Source: Daucus carota subsp. sativus
Lineage: Eukaryota > Streptophyta > Magnoliopsida > Apiales > Apiaceae
Assembly (NCBI RefSeq): GCF_001625215.2
Contig: NC_030383.2
Coordinates: forward strand, 45,380,380 to 45,444,379
Reading direction: 5' to 3'
DNA: 64,000 nt
A program made the position numbers and the translations under genes. This document shows positions 6,957 through 63,269 of the stretch, piece by piece. The stretch's first letter is position 1, and each line of letters begins with the position of its first letter. The notes under the pieces were generated by a model that saw only the letters and a list, made by a program, of their open reading frames with translations, was not told the DNA's origin and ran no database searches.

Positions 6957-7121
6957 TATCTCTCTTTATGATTAAAGAAGAAGAAAAACAAATCGATGAA
7001 AAAGCTAAGAAACAGATTGATAAATGATAAGGACAGATCTCAACGAGAGAACATTCTCACCATGTCAAAGGACAAGACTTTGTATTCTTTTCTAATTCAA
7101 ATCTTCTTCATGGATATTCTT

Positions 7122-7799
7122 CGGAGTTGTGCTTGCATGACTTTCGGTTAGATGATAAACTTTCTTGAAAGAAAGATATCCCGGATGCGGTTTATTGTAT
7201 TCGATACAATTCATCTACTTGTATGTAGACCTTACAAAAAAAAAAATCATTAACCAAAGTATAAACACGCCACACATGAGTCGTTATACCTTTAATCTCT
7301 CCTCAATCCAAGAACCGCCAATTTTGTAACTCTTATATCATCACTACTCATTTGTGGTTCCTCATCTTGTGGGACACGCCGCCCGACCACTTTAGTTAGG
7401 AAGACCGATGCAACCCATTTACAAACTCTCATATTGCTGGACACATCACCAGACCACCTTAGTCAGGAAGACTTTCGATAGATACCGTCCAAGAAGTCTA
7501 GAGCCTCCCACGTCACACAATTACAGTCCACAACCACATGATCAAATTTTTAACCATAAGCTCCGATATCACTTGTTAGGGTTAGATACGAAATTAGCCT
7601 ACTTGTGCAAAACACACGCAAAATGTATATGACGTAGCAAACACATGTCCTAACTTGTATTATTAATCAAAACTACAGCAATAATACAATTAATCAAACT
7701 ATGATGTTCAAGCCTAATAAGACCCAAATATCCACTTTCATGCGATAACTAATTCTACATCTTGATGCTCAACTAACTTTTTATCAAATGGTTTTTCGT

Positions 7800-7800: not shown

Positions 7801-9190
<1,390 letters not shown>

Positions 9191-49755: not shown

Positions 49756-49789
<34 letters not shown>

Positions 49790-50263
49790 CCAAGGATCAA
49801 ATAGAAACCAATTTTAAAATAAAAACTTAGAACTAATCTTGACCATCTATCTAATATAATTTACTTTCAATCATAGCCATTCAAATAATAAAATATGTAA
49901 AATATAAAAAACAAAGATTTTGTTTAATTGAATATCATAACTGATTTCCGTTTCTCTCTCTTCACTCCATGATTTCAGCGCCTAGCAGCTTTCTCTCTCT
50001 AAACTGTAGTTTAGCGACGCCATTAAAACTGTAGTCTTCGATTACTGTCTTCTCTGTACTCGAGCTTCGATATCTCTCTGTCTCTATTGCTCTGTGTCTC
50101 TAACTCGAGCTTCGACTCTCTAACTCGAGCTGGCTTTTGTCTGTTTTTGACGTTTGATTGAAGCTCTCTGTCTCTGTTATTCTGGAGCTCTCTCTCTTTG
50201 TTGCTTTGTGTCTATAATTCGAGCTCGAGAAAGTGTGGTTGAAGTAGATTCGAATTGCTGAAG

Positions 50264-53200
50264 ATGATTATATCAGACTTAACGAAGATTAGTGATAATC
50301 AAGGTAAAGTTTGTTGTTCACTGTTTTTGTTTTTTGATATAATTTGATGATTATATCAGATTACAGTGTTTTCATGCTCATATTGCTTTTGTAGTTTAGG
50401 CATGCTCATATTCTTGTAGTTTCTATTTAGTGATATGTCTAATATAATTTAGTTGTATTCGAATTGTGTATATTTTAGTGCTTGTGTTTTAGTTAGAGTT
50501 TAGACATGTAGTTGCTGGATTGATGATTGTTAGTTATAGTAATTGTGTTTATATATGATTTTTAGTCATATAGCTAATATAATTTAGTTGTATTGGAATT
50601 GTGTGTTTTTTAGTGTATGTGTTTTGGATAGATTTTAGATATGTAGTTGCTGTATTGTTGATTTTTAATGTATGATTGCAAGTTTTTGATGACTGAGTTA
50701 GTGTGTAGGTGCTGCAGTATATTAGTAGTGTTTGTTTATTATTTTCAATGTGATGCAGTAGGCAGTTATAGTATGATCCTGTTAGAGTATTATAGTATTA
50801 TTTATATAAATTTTGAGTATGTCTATTGTATTTCAGGTTCAAGTTGCGGTGATTCGTCTAATGTTTGTGTTAGTATTCCTGTTTCTTCAACAGAAAGCGA
50901 AAAATCAGTGACGAATTGCATTGTCTCTCCTGGTGGTATGAAGTATTTTATGCCTAGTTCTGTTGATGGAAGTCAAGTACCGTTTCAAAATCAGTCATTT
51001 GATAGCTTAGATAAGGCGTACAACTTTTACAGAGAGTATGGGAGGCTAGGGGGTTTTGATGTACGAAAAACATCGGAGAAGAGAGATGCTGATGGTACCA
51101 TAATTTTGAAACATTTTGTGTGTAGTAAGGAAGGTTTTGTTGATGGAAGTCATTCTGAAGGAATTAGGCAAAGACGTACTGTGTCACGGAGGTGTGGATG
51201 TAAAGCAAAAGTGGTCATGAAAATTAGGAGCCAGAACAGATATTATATTTTCAATTTTGTTGAACTTCACAACCATCCGCTTGCTAGTGAAAGTGGTAGA
51301 CAGTTTCTGAGGTCTAGTAGAGAGATGACAGTTAGTTTGCGAAGTTTTGTTTTTGATGCTGCGAAGGTAAATATCGGCTGCAGCAAGGCATTTAGCTTGG
51401 TCAAAGAGATGACAGGTGGATATAGTAATGTTGGGGCAACATTACGTGATTTCAGGAATTTTAATAGGGATTTAAAAGAATTTGTCGGTGAAAGGGATGG
51501 ACAGATGCTGATTGACAAGTTTAAAGTATTACAGGAGACATCAAAATCATTTTATTTTGCTTATGAGCTTGATGGTGACGGGCATTTGACTATGCTTTTC
51601 TGGGCTGATCCAACTAGTAGGAGGAACTTTGAAATATACGGCGATGCTGTGTCATTTGATGCCACTTTTGATACTAACAAGTTAGTTATTTTACATTTCA
51701 AATTGTTGTCTTTTAGTAATAGAGTTATTAGTTTTCTTTTTATGTAATGTTGTTAGAATGTCGATAATGGTTTATATTATACTACAATACCTTGTCTGGA
51801 ACTATGAAGTAAAGTACGTATATTTGTAATTTTTTTAATTAATCTTTTTAACAAGGCTCAAGGTGCAGTAGACAATGGTATACTGGAGTTATATTTGCAG
51901 TACCTTAGTGATAATCTCAGTATATTTTAGTGATACCCTAAATATATTTTAGTGATGTCTGCAGTGTATTTTAGTGGTATATGTTAGTTTATGTGGTTTT
52001 TAATCTGTTTTATCTATGTTCAGGTATAATATGATTTTTGCGCCTTTCACTGGTGTTGACAAACATGATAGATGTGTCACATTTGCTGCTTGTTTGTTAT
52101 CAAAAGAAGATGTTGCTCATTATAATTGGGCCTTTAAACATTTTGTCAAGGCCATGGGACGCAATCCAGTGGTGTTTATAACTGATCAGTGCCCTGCAAT
52201 GAAGGTATCTGTGCCGGCTTCATTTTGTGGTGATAATGATTTGGTTGCTAGCAAGCATCGCCTATGTATGTGGCATATAATGCAGAAATTCCCTATTAAG
52301 GTAGTTTTTTAGTTGTTTTTTAGAAATTTGGTTCCTAGCATCTGAAATTTACTGTCATATATTTATGTAATTTTCCATAATATTGCAGCTTGGGAATCGT
52401 TTGTGTAAGGAAACAGACTTTATGGAGAAAATGAAAACTTACATATGGTCATCGAATTTGGAAATTGATGAGTTTGAAAGTGGATGGAAAGCGGTTATAG
52501 GAGAGTTTAAGTTGGAAGATAACAAATGGTTATCAGATATGTATGACATAAGAAAGTCGTGGATTCCTGCCTATTTCAGGGACAGTCCTATGTTTGGTTT
52601 GATGAGGACAACTTCAAGGTCCGAAAGTGAAAATTTTTTCTTTTCACAGTTTCACAAGCAAGGTGATACTTTATGTGAGTTTTGGATACGTTTTGAGAGT
52701 GCAATGCATAGGCAGCGGAATGAAACAGAACGTTTAGACCATGAGTCTAACTCAAGCAAACCAAACATTTTATCAAGATGGTTCATTGAAGATGATGCAG
52801 CTGAGTTATTTACACGTTCCATTTTTTACAAAGTTCAAGAAGAAATTTTGGCATCTTGCTTGGATATGCAAATCAAGAGGATGAGTGAAGAAGTTGATGG
52901 GGTAACTCATTTTGAAATAAAGGATGTCAAAGTTAAAGATAAACTTTTTAAGGTATGTGTTTTCCCCTTTATAGTAGTATTTTATATATTCTAATTTTGA
53001 TTTATATTTTTTTTACAGTAGTAATTGTTATTGTGGAACAGAAAGTAAATATAAAATATTTGAAAATATGCATAATATAATTTTAGTAATGCATTATTAA
53101 AATATTTTGCATTCTGATAAATTGTAGTGGCATTAGTAGTTGTTTTGTATTGCAAGTAGTCATTAGTAGTGATCTGGATTGGAAGTAAATGTACTGGACC

Positions 53201-53915
53201 ACCTGCCGAACTTTGGTTTTTATGTCATTTTATTTTTGAAGCATATCTCATATTGGTAATGGTTCAAAATGGTGATTTGAATGGTGATTTATGATTCATT
53301 TTGCAGGTTACTGTTAGCAAATCACATGCCGTATGTTCATGCAAACAATTTGTTATGTGTGGAATTGTTTGTAGGCATGCTTTCTGTGGCTTAAAGCAGA
53401 TTGGTGTCACAAAATTTCCAAGGAGTCTCGTGCTTAATCATTGGATGAAAGTTGCAGAAAGTGGCACTTCATTGGAATCTAATGTTGTGTGTTCGGATTA
53501 TTTTAAAATGGAGCAAGTGTCGTTGAAGTTGACAAACTTATGGTTTGATTTTCGTCAGATTCTTAGCAAAGCTGGAGTTGAAATGGATAAGCTTGACTAT
53601 GTTCACAAAATCATTAAGCAGATAAGTAGTGATTTTGAAAAGTATGATGGAGGTTCTGTTGATTTTACTAAAAAGGATCATATGGCAGCTATGGTAGGTG
53701 AACAGCCGGTTGAAGAGGTTACCATTCTTGCACCAACTGTTTCCAGGAACAAGGGAAATTATTTCAAGCGTCTTGTGAGTGATAGGGAGAAAGCAATGAC
53801 AAAAGCAAATAAAAGAGTTCGAAGATGTAAAGAATGTTCGGCAACCACTCATGATTCGAGAACTTGTCCGAAGAAAAAGAAGGATGGAGGAGCTGTAGTT
53901 TCGAATATGTTGTGA
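50264..53915 (+). CDS. FAR1/MULE-type transposase, 5 exons, 777 aa
   Basis: Exons 50264-50303, 50837-51680, 52024-52300, 52389-52952, 53307-53915; all GT/AG, 2334 nt, no stop. Domains: FAR1 DNA-binding region about 61-165 (FDSLDKAYNFYREYGRLGGF then CGCKAKVVMK and FVELHNHPL); MULE transposase core with the likely DDE residues in SFDATFDTN (about 285-295), FITDQCPAM (about 348) and RSESENFF (about 467), plus the CMWHI motif; SWIM zinc finger about 584-600 (CSCKQF, CRH); and a C-terminal zinc-knuckle-like CKECSATTHDSRTC (about 749-763). It should bind the element ends and catalyse cut-and-paste transposition. Host FHY3/FAR1 regulators share this fold, but the TIR context makes this a transposon gene. 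The start ATG is in a small first exon whose phase fits exactly. Confidence 0.9.
51900..51990 (+). repeat. TTTAGTGAT motif cluster in transposase intron 2
   Basis: Four copies of (C/T)TTAGTG(A/G)T at roughly 20-bp steps between exons 2 and 3. Further clusters of the same motif are at 54110-54215, 54870-54990 (reverse), 57010-57050, 58715-58815, 59830-59940, 61880-61945 and 62400-62440. Confidence 0.8.
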
Positions 53916-55857
53916 ATATGATTTTAATTTTCAATTTTAAAAGACCTTGTGCACTTGTCTTTATAAATTGTTAAGTACATTTTGATTTTATGTTTTCTGA
54001 GTACATTTTGATTGTTTATAAATTGTCTTTATAAAGCATATTAGTACTGATACATTGTCAGTTTATATTGAATATATAAACTGAATTTGTCAAGTTTTGG
54101 AGTGAAAATGAGTTGGTTTTTAGTGATATAGGTAATGTAATTTAGTGGTGTTATCAGTGTAATTTAGTAGTATACATCCCAAGTTTTAGTGATATGTGTG
54201 GTTTTTTAGTGATATCCTGCTTTACTGTGTAATGAAAACAATGAAAAATCATAAAACTAAAATGAAACAATAACAAAAGTAAAAAAGCCAAATATTTACC
54301 ATTGCATTTTGAGCTGGTAAAAACAAAATAACCATATCTTTACAAAAACAAACCACTAAATCATTTTCAGTCTCAACAGGACTGATAATTTTCAGCCATC
54401 TAATAATTCTGTTCAATCAGTTTCTAATATTCTATAAAAGTGCAGTAAAACAATGCACTAAATCTAAGAAGGAGTTGGTCCTTCTTGAGACGACCTTTCT
54501 GCTTCGTGGAAAGAACTTATTAAGTTCACCGCGAATTTCACTCTCTTGCCGGATTTTTTAGTTGGAAACTTTTCTGCAACTTTTCCAGCCAGGACGACAT
54601 TGATGATATTATGCTTTTCTGCTGTGTTGTACAAGCCTACAGCTTCTGTGGTGATAGGCTCTTTCAGTTCATTCAGGTGTGAAGATAGGATTGTTGTGTT
54701 GTACTTGAACCTCAGCCTAGTTATTTGTTTATCATGTGTTGGCTGCAATATGATAATTTGTTTATTAGTGTTTGTTATCACATAAATTTTTAAGCCTAAT
54801 AAACAGAGCAATTTGAAAAGAAATTAAGGGCATGCTGCATACACATTTGAATTACAAAGCTATATACACTTTAATCAATTTCACTAAAACATATTAACTA
54901 TATCACTAAAACATATTAACTATATCACTAAACTATATTAAGTATATCACTAAAGTATGTCAACTATATCACTAAAATGTAAAGCAGTATATAAGTATGT
55001 AAAATATTAAACTAATCTTACCCCTTCTTCTGTTAAGTCAGTGTTCCAGTTTTTGACATCTCCTTTGAAGGTTTCCATATGGCGCATGAGGAAGATACCA
55101 CAATCTGTGGAATTGTCAGTAGTCTGCCATGGCATTTTCACAAAACGAGGCTTCATTTTCCGCACTCTTGATCCCAAATTTGGATTTTCATTCCTACTTA
55201 TATAATTGCAAAAGTGAGAATGCTGTAAAAGAGAAGTAAAATATTAGTATAGTGGACTTAAAACAGTGCATGTTTATATACATAATAGTGGAATGAAGGA
55301 TAAAAAAATATATTACCAAAACCTCCAAAACTCTGCTATAGTACATCTTAGGCTGTGCTTCACGTTTAATATTGTCAATTATAAAGTATCCCATGGTTTT
55401 GATACCATAGCATACCAAATAATAATGCTCATATTTATTAATAGGAAAGCACACCTGTAATCATATTAAGAGATATTTTAGTTAAAGATATTTGAGAAAT
55501 GTTGAGATCTATGTCAAAATTAGTTGAGAAATGACATTTACCATTTCCACGTCTTCCACTTTTTTGATGGAAAAAGTTTGAAGAATCTTGTCCATCCCAC
55601 TGGCAAACGAATCATAAGTTTCGGTGACTTTCTTTTCTGGATCAATGCTGAAAATCTGGTTGATATAAATATATTAGATTCTGTTGTATGTAGTTATGAA
55701 ATAACTGAAAGAAATTAATTAGAATATATATACGAAGGCAGTATATATTACCAAATCTCCTATTGTGCAGAAAAGTCTTAGTGGTGACCCATCTGCCTTG
55801 TACTTTTCACTGTCATTTAGGATTGTTGCCCATGTATCAATCACAGAGTAGTATACA

Positions 55858-56270
55858 TAGAGCTGTAATTCGAGTCGGGCGGCTCGCGAGCTCGCCCGGC
55901 TCGAACTCGTTTAAGTGAGCTCGGCTCGACTCGACTCGTTAAACGAGCCGAGTTCGGACAAAGGTTTCGGCTCGTTTAATTAAACGAGCCGGCTCGACTC
56001 GACTCGTGAAATTAATCGAGCCGAGTTCGGGTGGAGGTTTGGGCTCGATTTAGTGTAAAATTATACGAGCCGGCTCGCTCGACTCGTTAAAACTGGCTCG
56101 TTTAGCTAAACGAGCCGGCTCGACTCGGCTCGTTAAATTAACCGAGTCGAGTTCGGGCAAAGATTTAGGCTCGATTAGTTAATCGAGTCGGCTCGGCTCG
56201 ACTCGATTAAACTTAGCTCGAATTAAGCTCGGCTCGAAACTCGCCCGGCTCGACTCGAATTACAGCCCTA
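55858..56270. mobile_element. hAT-like MITE built of CGGCTCGACTCG words, 413 bp, inside ULP exon 9
   Basis: TIRs TAGAGCTGTAATTCGAGTCG and (reversed) TAGGGCTGTAATTCGAGTCG; perfect 8-bp duplication AGTATACA at 55850-55857 and 56271-56278. Almost the whole interior is iterated GAGCCGGCTCG, GACTCGACTCG and TTTAATTAAACGAGCC words, self-complementary and GC-rich against an AT-rich background. No coding capacity. The 8-bp TSD supports hAT. Confidence 0.92.
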
Positions 56271-58628
56271 AGTATACACTTGTTTTTGGTTTCAGCGTCA
56301 ACAAGTGTTCCTTGATACATCTAACTTCCTCCCATCTAAACAAATCATCCCTGTAATTATATATATTAATTAGTATTAGGCAGATAAAGAAATGTATATA
56401 ACAGAAAGGGCAAAATACTTACAATAGCTCGCCCTTTTTCTTTAACAAGAAGACCCAATATCCAAAGTCTTCATTGTTCATTCTTTCCTTGATATCAATC
56501 ACTCTGTTGACATAAGGTGATTTTTGATATGGACCAACTTTCTTTGTCCGCTTGCTTTTTTCTCTCTCTTGTGGTTCTGGCTCTGGCGTGACCAAATTTT
56601 GATTACTTTCTTTTTCTATGTCATCCAGGCCAAGGGAAAAAGAAGGGACATATCTCTCATCATCTTTCTCTTGCTCAGCAAGGATCTCAATGTCGGTTCT
56701 GTCCATTTGTTCAACAACTTCTAGGCTGGCGACTATTTCAGGTGATAATTCATCACCCAAATCATCACCAGTTTCCTGGTTAGGAATGAGATATTCTTTC
56801 AGGATTTCACCGATAATAGAAAAGTTTTTATTATCGGGAAACTTTTCCCTTGCTTTCACTAAATCTTCATCAAATTTGGACTTTATGTCCACAAGTTCCT
56901 CTGCCCTTTTACGTAAATCATGAAGTACATCCTGAGAAGTCAATGCAAAATTTAGAATTGAAATATAGTGATATATATGGTAGTATTATAATATTTTAAT
57001 AGGTGATCTATCTAATATACTCTAGTGATATATATAATAGTTTTTAGTGATAATTTGCATGAATTATAGTAGTATGTTACTAATTCATATATAATGTACC
57101 TCTTCAGTTTGTTCAACATTTCCATCAGCTGCCTCTGTTGGAGGAGTGTAATACTGTGTATTTTGTGGACTTTGGCACTGAGTTGATTCATGAGGTGGTT
57201 GTGATGTTGACTCCTTTCTCTTCAGGTAATCTTTTTCAATTCTATCCACCTCTGACCAATACTGCCACGTATCCCAGGCTCCATTTTCATTATCATTTAC
57301 CTACAATTAAGGATGAAACACATTTTTATATAAAAAGAATAAGATAGGTTTTCGACTACGTATTCCATATACAAACAGGATCATACCTTTGTCTTTGGAG
57401 GTTCAGAAGGATCAATTTTTTGTAGATATTCTTTTAAACTTGGTTGGATTGATCCAACTCCAAAAACTCCGTCAATCACCTCAATTTCTTGTCTTTGTCT
57501 CAACATTTCTATAGTCCAACCATTGTAGGAAGGAAATTGTCTATCAACCAGGTTCATTCCTTTGTACCTCACACGGTCGACATATAACAACTACAAAGTG
57601 AAACAAGTAAAACTATTAATTAGATTTTATATTCTATTAGAATATACAGACGAGAAAAAAAAAGATTTAGATTGTTGTCTTACAGTGAGAAAGATTAGTG
57701 ATCCTCGGAAAAATGTTGTTGTTGTTCTGTTCCAACTCTCCATTCCAATTACAAGGTAGCCTAGGAGGAAATCTGCCCAGTTATACTTCTTCAGATTGTC
57801 AAGGTTATCATCAAGTTGCAGCAGTTGTTTGTCCACATAAGAAGCTCCTTTTGTGCCAATAAGCACATTTGACATAACAAGAAGGACGTTTAATTTGAAG
57901 TTATCATTAACTTCTTGGTTTTTCATCACTTGAACAATCATCTGTGTTGTTATTTGATCAGATAAAGTGAATTGTGCATGCCAATCTTTGATTCTTTGAC
58001 TGTACTTTCCAGGTGATGCCAGAATAATAGGATGTCCTCCATTTGGCAGGCCTAACACATCATAAACATCTTCACTTGTAATATTAATATCTCCATCCTT
58101 CAGCTTCAGTGAGATTGAGTGGTGATCAAAGATTTGGAGTACATTGTAGGCGATTTTGGTTGGCAAAATGTCAAGCTCAAAATCCAGTAAGAGTGCAAAA
58201 CCAGCTCTTGTAACCCAGTCCCTCTGCTCTTTTGTGAGTTCACCTGCCATCTTACTAAAATGCCTTGGAGATATCCTTATCTTGACCTCGTCTTTTTTCT
58301 TATTTATATGTTTAGCCCCTTCTGTTTTCTAATGAAATAAGAGGAAATAATTAGTGTTGTAAAAACCACAAGAAACGACAGTGCAGGGCATCACTAAAAT
58401 ATTGTGCTCAAATTTCTAATTCTAAGTAACGAAATAAATAAAAAATACCTTAACATCCTTGTTCATGAACTTCAATAGTGGATATAATGTTCCAGCAATC
58501 CTTTTTCTTGGTATATGAGTTTCAAATGCAGCTTCCTGTTAAGAACATAAAACAATATACTAAGCAGTTGTATATTCACAAATTTATACTAAGCAGTTGT
58601 ATATTCACAAATTTATAAAACTATGGAA

Positions 58629-58944
58629 CCTGCAAAATCATAAAACTTGCAAATACATGTAAAATATACTATTTAACAAGAAGTATATTCACAAATTTAT
58701 ACTAAGCAGTTGTATTTTAGTGATCTTAGTTGATATACTTTAGTGATATACTTAATATACTTTAGTGATATACTTAATATAGTTTAGTGATATAGTTAAT
58801 ATATTTTAGTGATAGTGATATTCACCTATCTATTCCTTTAAAACGAATCAAGATTTTAAGCTACCAGTCTACTTTAAACAGATAGATATCTCACAAACAA
58901 CACACACAAATATACAGACATTCGATATATACTATAATTAAAGA
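58629..58944. repeat. Direct repeat, copy 1, within ULP introns 2-3 region
   Basis: About 310 bp starting AACCTGCAAAATCATAAAAC recur almost unchanged at 59744-60058, including the TTTAGTGAT cluster. This copy lies in the intron between exons 3 and 4, the other between exons 1 and 2. Confidence 0.9.
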
Positions 58945-59743
58945 CTATATAAACGTCGATGCTTTAAAATCGAATTTAAGCACATTCGATATATATACTA
59001 TATAATTAATAATGAAGAAAGTGAAGAAAGTGAAGAAAGTGTACCTTTTTCCTTTTGTATTTTGTTATTTTAATCTTTGGTTGTGCATTGTTGACTTGAG
59101 CTTGATTTTCTGTTTCATCCTCTTCTTGTTCATCCTCTTCTTCTTCATCCTCATTTTCTTCCTCACTTTCGTTTAGTACATCGTCTTGTTCATCATCTTC
59201 TTCTTCTGCACTATCTTCATCACCTTCTTCACCTTCTTGTGCACTATCGTCATCACCTTCTTCACCTTCTTGTGCACTATCGTCTTGCTCCATGTCTTCT
59301 GCACTATCTTCTTGTGCACTGTCTTCTTCACCTTCTTGCATATCTTCATCACTTTGTTTGTCATTATCTTGATCTCCATCTTGTTCATCCACCAGATTAT
59401 TACAATTATGTTCATCCCCTTCTACTTCATCAACAAGTTTATTTCCCTATGAAATCATACAAAATAATGATTTAGATTAATTTATAAATCAATAATACAA
59501 CTAAGAAATAATGTAGTTGATCACATACAACAAGAGTTTTGATATTTCTTCCAGCAGTAGCCTTTATGACTTTGTTATCTGGACGTCGATAGACTTTTGC
59601 AAGTGGTCTATTGTCTCCTCTGTTGTTGGTATTCATGTTTGCTTGATCTTCGGATTCTAAATCTACAGGAGTATCTGCAGTGTTTGTAAACTTTGACAAA
59701 CTATGTGCACGAAGTCTTGTACTTCTTCTGCATTGAACTATGT

Positions 59744-60058
59744 AACCTGCAAAATCATAAAACTTGCAAATACATGTAAAATATACTATTTAACAAGAAG
59801 TATATTCACAAATTTATACTAAGCAGTTGTATTTTAGTGATCTTAGTTGATATACTTTAGTGATATACTTAATATACTTTAGTGATATACTTAATATAGT
59901 TTAGTGATATAGTTAATATATTTTAGTGATAGTGATATTCACCTATCTAATCCTTTAAAACGAATCAAGATTTTAAGCTACTAGTCTACTTTAAACAGAT
60001 AGATATCTCACAAACAAAACACACAAATATACAGACATTCGATATATACTATAATTAA
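59744..60058. repeat. Direct repeat, copy 2, in ULP intron 1
   Basis: Near-identical partner of 58629-58944, about 1.1 kb away in the same orientation. The copy includes the exon 2 acceptor sequence itself (TTTTGCAG), so a splice acceptor was part of the duplicated unit. Confidence 0.9.
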
Positions 60059-61415
60059 AATTCAATTGAGGTTACCAAGAGAAGAAAATAGATTCTAACT
60101 TGTTCTGTTATTTAGGCTTAAAAAATTATGTGATTAGAAACACTTAGCACTTAGCTCTGCTACAAGAGTTTTATTAAAGAAATATTTCGGTTATACATGT
60201 TACTAATAAGAAATGCCTGATTCATCATAAATCAACTTGGAGTTTGAACATGCCAGAGGGATACCAATTAAATATTTGCTTTAATATCTGTCAGTTATTA
60301 ATTGCTAAGCATCTTTTCAATACTAAATCTGAGTTTATTAGCTAAGATAAAGAGTACTTTTCCACGGCATTTGTTTCTACTTTGGGAGCTTAATCATGAT
60401 TCAACTTAGTGTTATAAAATCTGTCAATTAGGCTTTTGGATAACTGATCTAGATTAACATCAAGATATGTTATAAAATCATATGTCTCAGCCTGGTTGTG
60501 TACTAAGTACTCTACACTAAGATGATTAATATGCACTAAGTACTCTACGTACTCTACACACTACACACTAAGATCAGTACTCTACATACTCTACAAACTG
60601 AGATTAGTAATATGCATTAACATGAGTAATATGCACTAAATCAACATCTTATTCATCAACAACATATTCATATTCATTAATTAAACAAATCAGCAACATA
60701 TTCATCAACATATTATTCAATAAATCAACATATTCAGACAAGTAAATGCTTGAAATCACAAATAATTAAAAAAACAGTGATAAAACCCTAATTTAACATA
60801 CCTCCTCTAGTTCTAGCCATATTTTAGTAGCTTTCAGAGTGAAATAAGCTAATTAACAGCTGTTATGAAAGAACATTAGTAAATTGAAGTCAGTTTTCAC
60901 AATAATATACAACAAAACCCTTAAAATTCAAAAAAACCGACATACACTAAAAATACGAGTTGATTAAGATGATTAACTAACTATAAATACTACTAAACTA
61001 CAGAAAAGTACCTATTCAAACAAATGTTGAAGTGATTTTGCGCGGTGCTTGAGCTGCGGTTGCGAGATCCAAAAATCGCCTCGAATTTCTTCGTAGAAGC
61101 TGTAATATGCCTAATTAGAACAAAAAAGAGGGAAAAAGTCGAAGAAACCGCCATTAGAGACGTACCTGAAGCTCGGTGCAGCAGCGCGATGATGAACAGT
61201 GGAGTAGTGGAGGTGATCGACCGTTGTGCGCGAAACGTGTGTATCGTGTGTATCGTATCGGTGTGTATCGTTTTTAACTGTGCAAGTGGGTTTTGTATAA
61301 GCGGGCTGGATCATTTTAGTGGGCTGGGAGTGTTAAAAAGTGGGTTGGGCCTGTGGTTTCTAGTTTCTATTTTAATTTGGTTTCTATTGGAGTATTACTC
61401 TATATATATATATAT

Positions 61416-61818
61416 GCTCATGATCAAATAGAAACCACTCTTAAAATAAAAACTAGAAACCAGTTTCCCTACCACTATTTATAACTACGGGTATCACTAA
61501 TTTATACTGCACTAATCACTGTTTTTATATAGTATGCAAACAACGATTTTTATCATCAAAATTGAGAAAATCTACTTATCTAAATTATTGATAATCGATT
61601 ATAGATGATTAATTTCATCCGTAGGAAGGTTCTTGGTGGTAGGAAACCGCAAGAGAAGTTGTATGATGATGGTAAGTAGTTGTTAATTTTGTAAGTTATG
61701 ATGGAAAGTGTATGTGACTATTGGTGATGACAGACAATGGTGGCAAGTCATAGAAACGTTTGGTAATGGTGGTAAGAGGTCCATTATTACGATTTGGGTG
61801 AAGATGATGGTCATATAT
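61416..61818. mobile_element. MULE-derived element, left arm of a palindrome
   Basis: Starts GCTCATGATCAAATAGAAAC, the same terminus type as the MULE, and is almost perfectly inverted relative to 62681-63083. Its far end is missing. Contains no ORF. Confidence 0.85.
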
Positions 61819-61823
61819 ATATA

Positions 61824-62490
61824 GGCTCATGATCAAATAGAAACCAATCTTAAAATAAAAACTAGAAACCAATACAGGTTAGTGATATTCCCAGTACAAT
61901 TTAGTGATATTCTCTTTAGGATTTAGTGATCTGTGTTGCAGAAATTAGTGAAAACTTAATCTCCAGATATGTTCAAGCTTAGAATCTCCAGATCTGTTCA
62001 CGTTTTCGATTCAGATGGTGGTGATAGTGGTGGAGATGGTGGAGGTGAAGGTGGAGATGGAGGAAAGATGATTGTAGCGGAGGTTTGGGCGGCTTGAGGA
62101 AGTGGGTTGGAGCGTTGCCGGAATAGTGGAGGCTCCGCGTTTGAAGTTGAGTCGAGGTGGAGAAAGAAGTATGAACGGGGCTGAAGGAGGTTGAAATAAC
62201 GATTAAGACGGGCCTGGTGAAGATGGAGGTGGAGGTTGTGTTGTTTGAGAAATAATGGAAGTGGAGGTGGAGATGGAGGTGGTGGTTATGGAGGAGGCAG
62301 GCGGCATAGAGGTGGTAGTGGTTATGAAGGAGGCGACGACAGAGGTGGTGGCAGTGGAGGTGGGTGTGGTGAAGATGGAGGTGGAGATAGGTTTATTTAA
62401 AAATTTAGTGGTATTTGCTTTAGGATTTAGTGATATTTCAGCTTGGTTTTTAGTTTCTAGAATAAGGAGGTTTTTATTGGAGTAAGACTC
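61824..62490. mobile_element. Small MULE relative inserted between the palindrome arms
   Basis: Left end GGCTCATGATCAAATAGAAA, right end (reversed) GAGTCTTACTCCAATAAAAA, both against short TA runs. The interior carries a purine-rich (GGTGGAGATGGA)-like low-complexity tract at 62015-62390 and several TTTAGTGAT motifs. No transposase. Confidence 0.75.
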
Positions 62491-62508
62491 TCTCTCTATA
62501 TATATATA

Positions 62509-63083
62509 GAGTCCTACTCCAATAGAAACCAAATTAGCCTAAAAACTAAAAACCAGTTTCTGGACAATTTTTTATCACTATATTTAACTACAGAAATCAC
62601 TAATTTGTACATAACATATAACTAATTTATATATAGCATATCTCGCGAATATAAATATATATATACACATATATGCAACGTATATGACCATCATCTTCAC
62701 CCAAATCGTAATAATGGACCTCTTACCACCATTACCAAACGTTTCTATGACTTGCCACCATTGTCTATCATCACCAATAGTCACATACACTTTCCATCAT
62801 AACTTACAAAATTAACAACTACTTACCATTATCATACAACTTCTCTTGCGGCTTCCTACCACCAAGAACCTTCCTACGGATGAAATTAATAATCTATAAT
62901 CGATTATCAATAATTTAGATAAGTAGATTTTCTCAATTTTGATGATAAAGATCATTGTTTACATACTATATAAAAACAGTGATTAGTGCAGTATAAATTA
63001 GTGATACCCTTAGTTATAAATAGTGGTAGGGAAACTGGTTTCTAGTTTTTATTTTAAGAGTGGTTTCTATTTGATCATGAGCC
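62509..63083. mobile_element. MULE-derived element, 575 bp, right arm of the palindrome
   Basis: Left terminus GAGTCCTACTCCAATAGAAA, right terminus (reversed) GGCTCATGATCAAATAGAAA. The segment 62681-63083 is the inverted partner of 61416-61818. It appears to be a complete non-autonomous member of the family. Confidence 0.8.
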
Positions 63084-63269
63084 TATATATATATATATCA
63101 GCTTGAGATGACTATATATGAATATTTATATTGTGTTTGTTATATATACATAAATATTATATTAAATATTATAATATTATACATACATGAAATTATATCA
63201 TATGCACCTTGTTATTTACATATAACATTGTTTACTTAAGACATGGATATTGAACAAATCTTCTTTATA

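Follow-up and report, generated by a model that had tools for sequence, protein, structure and literature searches.

Plant transposons with genes for Ulp1-type proteases (ULP genes) have been on record since the 2000s. The subject of this work is a transposon carrying such a gene in carrot (Daucus carota subsp. sativus), located in a stretch of 64,000 nucleotides (contig NC_030383.2 of assembly GCF_001625215.2, positions 45,380,380 to 45,444,379 of the forward strand), which is referred to below as the window. Positions 49788-61400 of the window are occupied by one Mutator-like element (MULE) of the FAR1 type (Jittery-like), which contains two convergent genes, one for a transposase and the other for a protein with a Ulp1 domain. 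What the Ulp1 domain does in such elements was still called unknown in a 2026 review (PMC13317346). Here and below, comparisons with published systems follow the available parts of the papers cited.

The closest described systems are Jittery-like MULEs of grapevine and melon, in some families of which a ULP sequence is present downstream of the transposase (PMC2528002; melon as cited there). The multi-copy grapevine families Jitvine-1 (11.9 kb) and Jitvine-2 (14.4 kb), which were compared by description only, differ from the carrot element in being listed without terminal inverted repeats (TIRs) or target site duplication (TSD), and the available part of that account makes no mention of motif arrays, a DUF1985 region, selection or TA targeting (PMC2528002). 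AutoMuTAnT/MuTAnT of Medicago truncatula resembles the carrot element in its five-exon Jittery-like transposase (833 residues), its TA-microsatellite target and its many short non-autonomous relatives, but AutoMuTAnT is 4.9 kb long, has a single open reading frame and a different TIR sequence, and a ULP is not mentioned in the main text (PMC4486113). In carrot itself, the MiMs are miniature inverted-repeat transposable elements (MITEs) residing in TA stretches. They form 15 families with over 2000 copies, and for three of the families autonomous Mutator relatives were reported; the available text mentions neither a ULP partner nor motif arrays (PMC8227079). The SaTars of guayule are further TA-targeting short elements (PMC5907723). 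In a broad survey of MULEs the plant Jittery group is given as one open reading frame with FAR1 (PMC6446971).

A second kind of likeness leads to the VANDAL/VANC and KIU systems. The VANC anti-silencing proteins of Arabidopsis carry DUF1985, with DUF287 also drawn in VANC; the short motifs to which VANC21 and VANC6 bind are located in non-coding tandem repeats and differ between families (PMC5735166). The KIU genes of Kaonashi elements are, according to a review, VANC genes with a Ulp1 domain (PMC13317346); a further source for the mechanism discussed below is PMC10398659. Common to these systems and the carrot element are a MULE partner protein, which has DUF1985 in VANC and a DUF1985-like region below the cut-off in carrot, and a short motif in non-coding tandem repeats that differs between families or lineages. 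VANDALs belong to another MULE group and have no TIRs or short degenerate ones (PMC6446971), whereas the carrot element has a FAR1-type transposase, TIRs and TA targeting. The element is a member of a published kind, the ULP-carrying Jittery-like MULEs; new are the arrays of a GTGA-core motif in its non-coding parts, which shift in sequence from lineage to lineage. The literature searched, which left out Sasaki 2022, the closest VANC/ULP study, possibly covering Jittery-like elements, yielded neither motif arrays nor claims of anti-silencing for elements of the Jittery-like kind.

Results

The ends of the element are imperfect inverted repeats (49773-49832 against 61415-61358, 82% over 60 bases, some TA included), and a TA microsatellite adjoins both of them. 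Target duplications in this branch of MULEs are 8-11 bp long; because both ends sit within TA microsatellite, no separate 9-bp TSD is visible at the window element. All genome searches were done in the genome that the window comes from, which is assembled into 11 contigs (441 Mb), nine of them 33-65 Mb long. Of 22 stretches, counting that of the window itself, 10 showed the left end, and in all 10 it was directly preceded by a TA run; among the other 12 stretches several were too short to reach the left end, or had diverged. A 403-bp query from the right end gave 17 full-length matches, the window included, and a 15-base TIR word had 689 exact matches in the genome as opposed to 2 for the control. 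With ends abutting TA microsatellites and numerous short relatives having similar ends, the element has the features of TA-targeting MULEs (MuTAnT/MiM).

The transposase gene has five exons separated by GT-AG introns and codes for 777 residues. Its Pfam matches are FAR1 (PF03101, 6e-20, residues 76-163) and MULE (PF10551, 6e-21, residues 285-383), with ZSWIM1-3_RNaseH-like and a CCHC knuckle (zf-CCHC_6) scoring below the cut-off. DDE-like residues (D288, D349, E466 or E468) were assigned by eye, as was a C-terminal CxC...CxH motif at 585-599; the SWIM zinc-finger family is absent from the Pfam matches. The Ulp1 gene consists of 14 minus-strand exon pieces, arranged in two sets coding for 788 and 276 residues. 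Its protein starts with an acidic stretch, continues with a weak DUF1985/plant-mobile-domain region and ends in a Ulp1/C48 domain, which is barely above the Pfam cut-off (21.2 against 20.7 bits). The catalytic residues follow each other in the expected order (H in EHYYL, D in FIIDN, Q and C in WQTTDNSTDCG). When the PDB was searched with the protein sequence (E up to 10), the sole two matches were to SENP7 (3eay and 7r2e), both of them weak (E 0.047 and 0.055) and confined to the surroundings of the Cys box. The H-D-Q-C motif is shared with the Ulp1/SENP SUMO proteases, SENP7 among them; the spacing of 8 residues from Q to C and the large N-terminal part, acidic and DUF1985-like, distinguish the carrot protein from these proteases. 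A PDB profile search with the DUF1985-like domain returned three chance-level matches only (E 0.39 or worse). A predicted structure of the DUF1985-like exon was discarded (single-sequence model, mean predicted local distance difference test score 32).

A preliminary description of this locus had proposed two convergent genes between imperfect TIRs, a 777-residue transposase with DDE, SWIM and FAR1 domains, and a second, likewise fully modelled gene coding for 1064 residues with Ulp1 His-Asp-Gln-Cys signatures. The gene arrangement, the length of the transposase and the Ulp1 signatures were all confirmed. As to the transposase domains, FAR1 stood and DDE stood by eye, whereas for SWIM there is the CxC...CxH reading by eye and no family match. 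The second gene of the window copy is not intact because a 413-bp insert splits a coding exon; the figure of 1064 is the sum of 788 and 276 and ignores the insert.

To see how regularly the two genes occur together, the genome was searched with the transposase; the best 58 of 1057 candidates were scored, which gave 124 rows, and the 72 rows used correspond to 45 loci. A convergent Ulp1 match was present at most 5 kb downstream in 39 of these 45 listed loci and within 16 kb in 41, and in none of the 45 was there an Ulp1 match on the same strand or upstream. The best exon identity of the paired loci to the transposase query ranged from 51% to 99%. The genome also has 40 Ulp1 loci that are without a listed transposase within 20 kb, some of which may be part of other transposon groups or represent more distant members. 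The distance between transposase exon 2 and the right end, worked out by hand, was 9.9-11.5 kb in 8 other copies as compared with 10.6 kb in the window; by the same measure two copies are enlarged (one 24 kb, one about 14.5 kb), and no full-length right end was listed near the loci at 16.57 Mb and 26.83 Mb of contig C9. Both genes thus repeatedly lie between the same ends, although this does not hold for all the copies found. The possibility that the two genes are separate insertions was rejected on the grounds of the convergent pairing, the copies free of the insert and the shared right ends.

Both genes are under purifying selection. The pooled ratio of nonsynonymous to synonymous changes (pN/pS) was 0.33 for the transposase (distinct changes, 16 copies against the window copy) and 0.27 for the Ulp1 gene, the latter mainly from the C-terminal half. 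All 777 transposase codons were aligned without a stop in 6 of the 16 copies, and 7 of the 16 had at least one stop. In the Ulp1 gene, the aligned codons were free of in-frame stops in 14 of 15 compared copies, the alignment spanning 1054/1066 codons in two whole copies and 178-495 in the others. The two whole copies, which are among 5 copies with a listing of indels, have exon indels that are in frame and located in the acidic stretch; one of these two copies, on contig C6, has a stop in its transposase. Beyond lineage A, to which the window element belongs, five diverged lineages were represented by one element each, with the exon-2 identity given in brackets: B (78%, L071), C (67%, L072), D (58%, L073), E (51%, L074) and F (64%, L075). 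The catalytic H, D, Q and C, read by eye in these elements and in three of lineage A, are kept in all six lineages. The retention of these residues, together with the pN/pS value of about 0.27, suggests that the protease is probably maintained as an enzyme.

The proposal of the preliminary description that the protease fills a partner-gene slot is well supported by the 39 convergent pairs among 45 loci and by the purifying selection on both genes: the ULP gene is a regular partner under selection, not an occasional passenger. The refuting outcome that it named, TIRs delimiting both genes in no other copy, did not occur, since other copies have both genes within the same ends. Its contrast with Kaonashi alone has to be given up, as Jittery-like MULEs with ULP were already described in grapevine, with melon cited (PMC2528002).

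Unbiased k-mer counting revealed that the word TTTAGTGATA occurs 18 times in the 6.1 kb of non-coding DNA of the window element and not once in its 5.5 kb of coding DNA. Elsewhere in the window there are only two occurrences, both in a neighbouring related element (0.53 expected per window). Its copies are spread over introns of the two genes, the region preceding transposase exon 2 and the stretch that separates the two 3' ends, and some of them form arrays with a 22-bp period; the arrays at 58716..58814 and 59833..59931 represent a single duplication event that is counted twice. Ten other copies, for which about 7 kb of sequence each was available, have 10-13 exact TTTAGTGATA each, up to two of these being in the flank, and the same stretch of the window has 9. 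In the whole genome, 498 pairs of TTTAGTGATA are exactly 22 bp apart (1 for the reversed control) and 532 are found at any spacing of 10-40 bp (control 5). The 12 bases between the paired motifs vary, 35 distinct versions being present among 58 examined. On contig C1, 27 of 38 motif pairs had an exact TIR word no more than 2.5 kb away (0.2 expected), and many motif pairs are located in short non-autonomous elements.

Variation among the lineage-A copies was compared between motif sites and their surroundings. The motif sites were less variable than other non-coding sites (17/290 versus 603/5035, P = 0.0009) and, with up to 1 mismatch allowed, less variable than the rest of the arrays (22/183, P = 0.025). 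A test on exact motifs of the window copy is biased, and it was followed by tests that tolerated up to 1 and up to 2 mismatches and by tests taking a different copy as the reference.

The motif changes between lineages around a constant core. With low-complexity words, some of them equally frequent, left out of the ranking, the commonest 8-mer of the non-coding DNA has GTGA in it in 6 of 6 lineages; in F it shares first place with TTGGTTTA. None of 200 dinucleotide shuffles reached that count with a GTGA-type word, and GTGA was missing from the top word in each of 8 control stretches of the window. The core is flanked differently in the different lineages, giving TTTAGTGA/TTAGTGAT/TAGTGATA in A, TTTAGTGA and TATAGTGAA in B, TAGTGATT in C, GGTGATTT in D, GTGATTTT in E and AGTGATTT in F. 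The word GTGGTGATT was counted in lineage D 11 times in non-coding and never in coding DNA, and is absent from lineage A. The 5-mer GTGAT ranks 2nd to 8th of 512 in lineages A, C, D, E and F; its rank in the remaining sequence of the window is 475th. For lineages B-F the coding mask was the tblastn coverage, by which some introns are taken as coding and some Ulp1 N-terminal coding sequence as non-coding, and the right flanks were untrimmed. Motif arrays with a period of 21-22 bp were found in lineages B, D and F. A 22-bp array detected by TRF with lineage C was not counted for C, being located left of the element's end in an adjoining element. In the lineage-F element the 21-bp arrays are at locus positions 7016-7299 (13.4 units) and 8959-9116 (7.5 units), and the unit holds a second word, TTGGTTTAG, in addition to AGTGATTT.

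The 413-bp insert in the Ulp1 gene is a MITE that we take, from its ends (TAGGGCTGTAATTCGAG / CTCGAATTACAGCTCTA), to be hAT-like. It is missing from 14 of 14 other copies spanning that point. Read by eye, the target duplication offers a GT and the end of the MITE an AG, which might allow the insert to be spliced in frame at the cost of three extra codons, making it a possible newborn intron (55850-56278); carrot hAT-like MITEs were reported to take part in new splice variants (PMC8227079). The Ulp1 gene also has a 324-bp direct duplication (58619-58942 and 59736-60059, 98.8% identical), which holds a motif array and extends to an exon border.

To the right of the element, the same TA-rich stretch (61401-63100) has further elements or fragments with related ends at 61401-61458, 61813-62555 and 63017-63098, a neighbourhood that resembles the modular SaTar arrays of guayule. 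For the 745-bp neighbour at 61816-62560, at least 44 other near-complete rows with 81-97% identity were obtained (best 40 of 1537 candidates scored). The positions of the features are collected in Table 1.

Table 1. Features of the element and its surroundings (window coordinates)
Feature	Position	Strand	Details
TA microsatellite target, left side	49757..49787	.	
Left TIR (GGCCAAGGATCAAATAGAAACC...)	49788..49832	+	directly 3' of TA microsatellite
Transposase gene	50264..53915	+	exons 50264-50303, 50837-51680, 52024-52300, 52389-52952, 53307-53915; 777 aa
Motif cluster upstream of transposase exon 2	50426..50667	+	one exact TTTAGTGATA at 50426; 107-bp direct repeat, 86%
22-bp-period motif array, transposase intron	51905..51976	+	
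Motif cluster, intergenic between the two 3' ends	54119..54214	+	
DUF1985-like/Ulp1 gene, full extent, with first exon set	54464..60820	-	60820-60802, 59746-59529, 59446-59045, 58535-58449, 58328-57684, 57590-57387, 57300-57100, 56931-56423, 56350-56271
DUF1985-like/Ulp1 gene, second exon set past the insert		-	55857-55752, 55655-55542, 55454-55317, 55222-55022, 54742-54464
22-bp-period motif array, Ulp1 gene intron	54881..54977	-	
Exons with Ulp1 catalytic H, D, Q, C	55022..55454	-	
413-bp hAT-like MITE in Ulp1 coding exon	55858..56270	.	8-bp duplication TGTATACT at 56271-56278 and 55850-55857
Motif cluster, Ulp1 gene intron	57003..57052	+	
Exon with DUF1985/plant-mobile-domain-like region	57684..58328	-	all DUF1985 and plant-mobile-domain matches below Pfam cut-off
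22-bp-period motif array, Ulp1 gene intron	58716..58814	+	
22-bp-period motif array, Ulp1 gene intron	59833..59931	+	within 324-bp duplicate of array 58716..58814
Right TIR	61358..61400	-	TA run next; 403-bp right-end query full-length at 16 further places
Neighbouring non-autonomous element, related ends	61816..62560	+	exact TTTAGTGATA at 61900 and 62426; TTTAGTGAT at 61922

Discussion

The element appears to have the same anatomy as the VANC and KIU elements in another branch of MULEs, and we therefore propose that the product of its Ulp1 gene may be a VANC-like protein, a partner that is guided by the motif and counteracts silencing, its protease possibly taking SUMO off silencing factors. 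We give this proposal a little less than an even chance. In the envisaged mechanism the FAR1-type transposase would recognise the ends and mobilise the element along with its many short non-autonomous relatives, as can be supposed from the shared ends. The N-terminal part of the Ulp1-gene protein would bind the GTGA-core motif repeated in the non-coding DNA of the element, and the bound protease would strip SUMO from local silencing or chromatin factors. The element would then shed silencing marks, which would make expression and movement possible. It would thus be the Ulp1 protein, and not the transposase, that binds the motif, removes SUMO and thereby prevents silencing.

In favour of this proposal count the regular pairing of the genes, the purifying selection, the retained catalytic residues, the motif arrays with their lineage-specific flanks, the lower variability of motif sites between copies, and the precedent of VANC21 and VANC6. 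Several observations weigh against it. With respect to the protein, DUF287 is missing from its Pfam matches (E up to 0.01), and the matches to DUF1985 are below the cut-off in five of the six lineages and absent in F. With respect to the motif, GTGAT ranks only 31st of 512 in lineage B, and lineage E is weak because its top count of 7 is within the range that any 8-mer reaches in shuffled sequence (mean 5.1, largest 9). For a spacing of 22 bp, the genome has a single instance of the lineage-D motif pair, hence a general 22-bp rule for all lineages was rejected and the spacing appears to be chiefly a feature of lineage A. If only exact motif copies are considered, the motif and the remainder of the arrays show no significant difference in variability (P = 0.22). 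Finally, on contig C1 an exact motif pair is found within 2.5 kb of only 16 of 68 exact TIR words, and in 8 of 25 pair sites the pair is 69 or 86 bp from the TIR word, where sites for the transposase would be expected.

These pairs close to the TIR word, subterminal in the short elements, speak for the main rival explanation, in which the FAR1-type transposase binds the motif arrays as enhancer-like or subterminal sites and the Ulp1 gene serves some separate purpose. The transposase has a FAR1 DNA-binding domain of its own, and subterminal repeats bound by the transposase are known in other plant transposons, which likewise counts for this explanation. In the window element, in contrast, the arrays are not subterminal: the exact copies nearest to the ends are about 640 bp and 1.5 kb away from them, and the rest are in introns and between the 3' ends. 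On balance we regard binding by the transposase as rather unlikely.

A still less probable alternative makes the Ulp1 protein a helper in transposition itself, the role supposed for mudrB, in which it would de-SUMOylate the transposase or repair factors with no need for a DNA motif. The stable tail-to-tail pairing, the conserved catalytic residues and the purifying selection would all be compatible with such a role, and mudrB has been described as apparently required for integration (PMC6446971), but the DUF1985-like region and the lineage-specific motif arrays would be left unexplained. That the gene is a captured host fragment without function (transduplication) is very improbable: gene capture is frequent in MULEs, and ULP in MULEs has been read as the outcome of repeated transduplication or repeated loss (PMC2528002), but a fragment of this sort would hardly be paired with the transposase in 39 of 45 loci, have a pN/pS of about 0.27 and keep its catalytic residues across lineages.

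The VANC-like role proposed here for the Ulp1-gene protein can be extended to a wider claim, which we put forward as tentative and, at present, doubtful: that the FAR1/Jittery-type MULEs may run a motif-addressed anti-silencing system of their own, separate from VANDAL/VANC, in which a SUMO protease encoded by the transposon would be guided to co-diverging GTGA-core arrays, and hundreds of non-autonomous TA-targeting elements would profit from it by bearing the same address. If this is true, distant MULE clades would use the same DUF1985-Ulp1 solution against silencing by the host. The motif arrays give a testable candidate answer to the question why a transposon carries a SUMO-type protease, and the element offers a candidate autonomous partner for the TA-targeting MITEs, the propagation of which is called unclear in PMC8227079.

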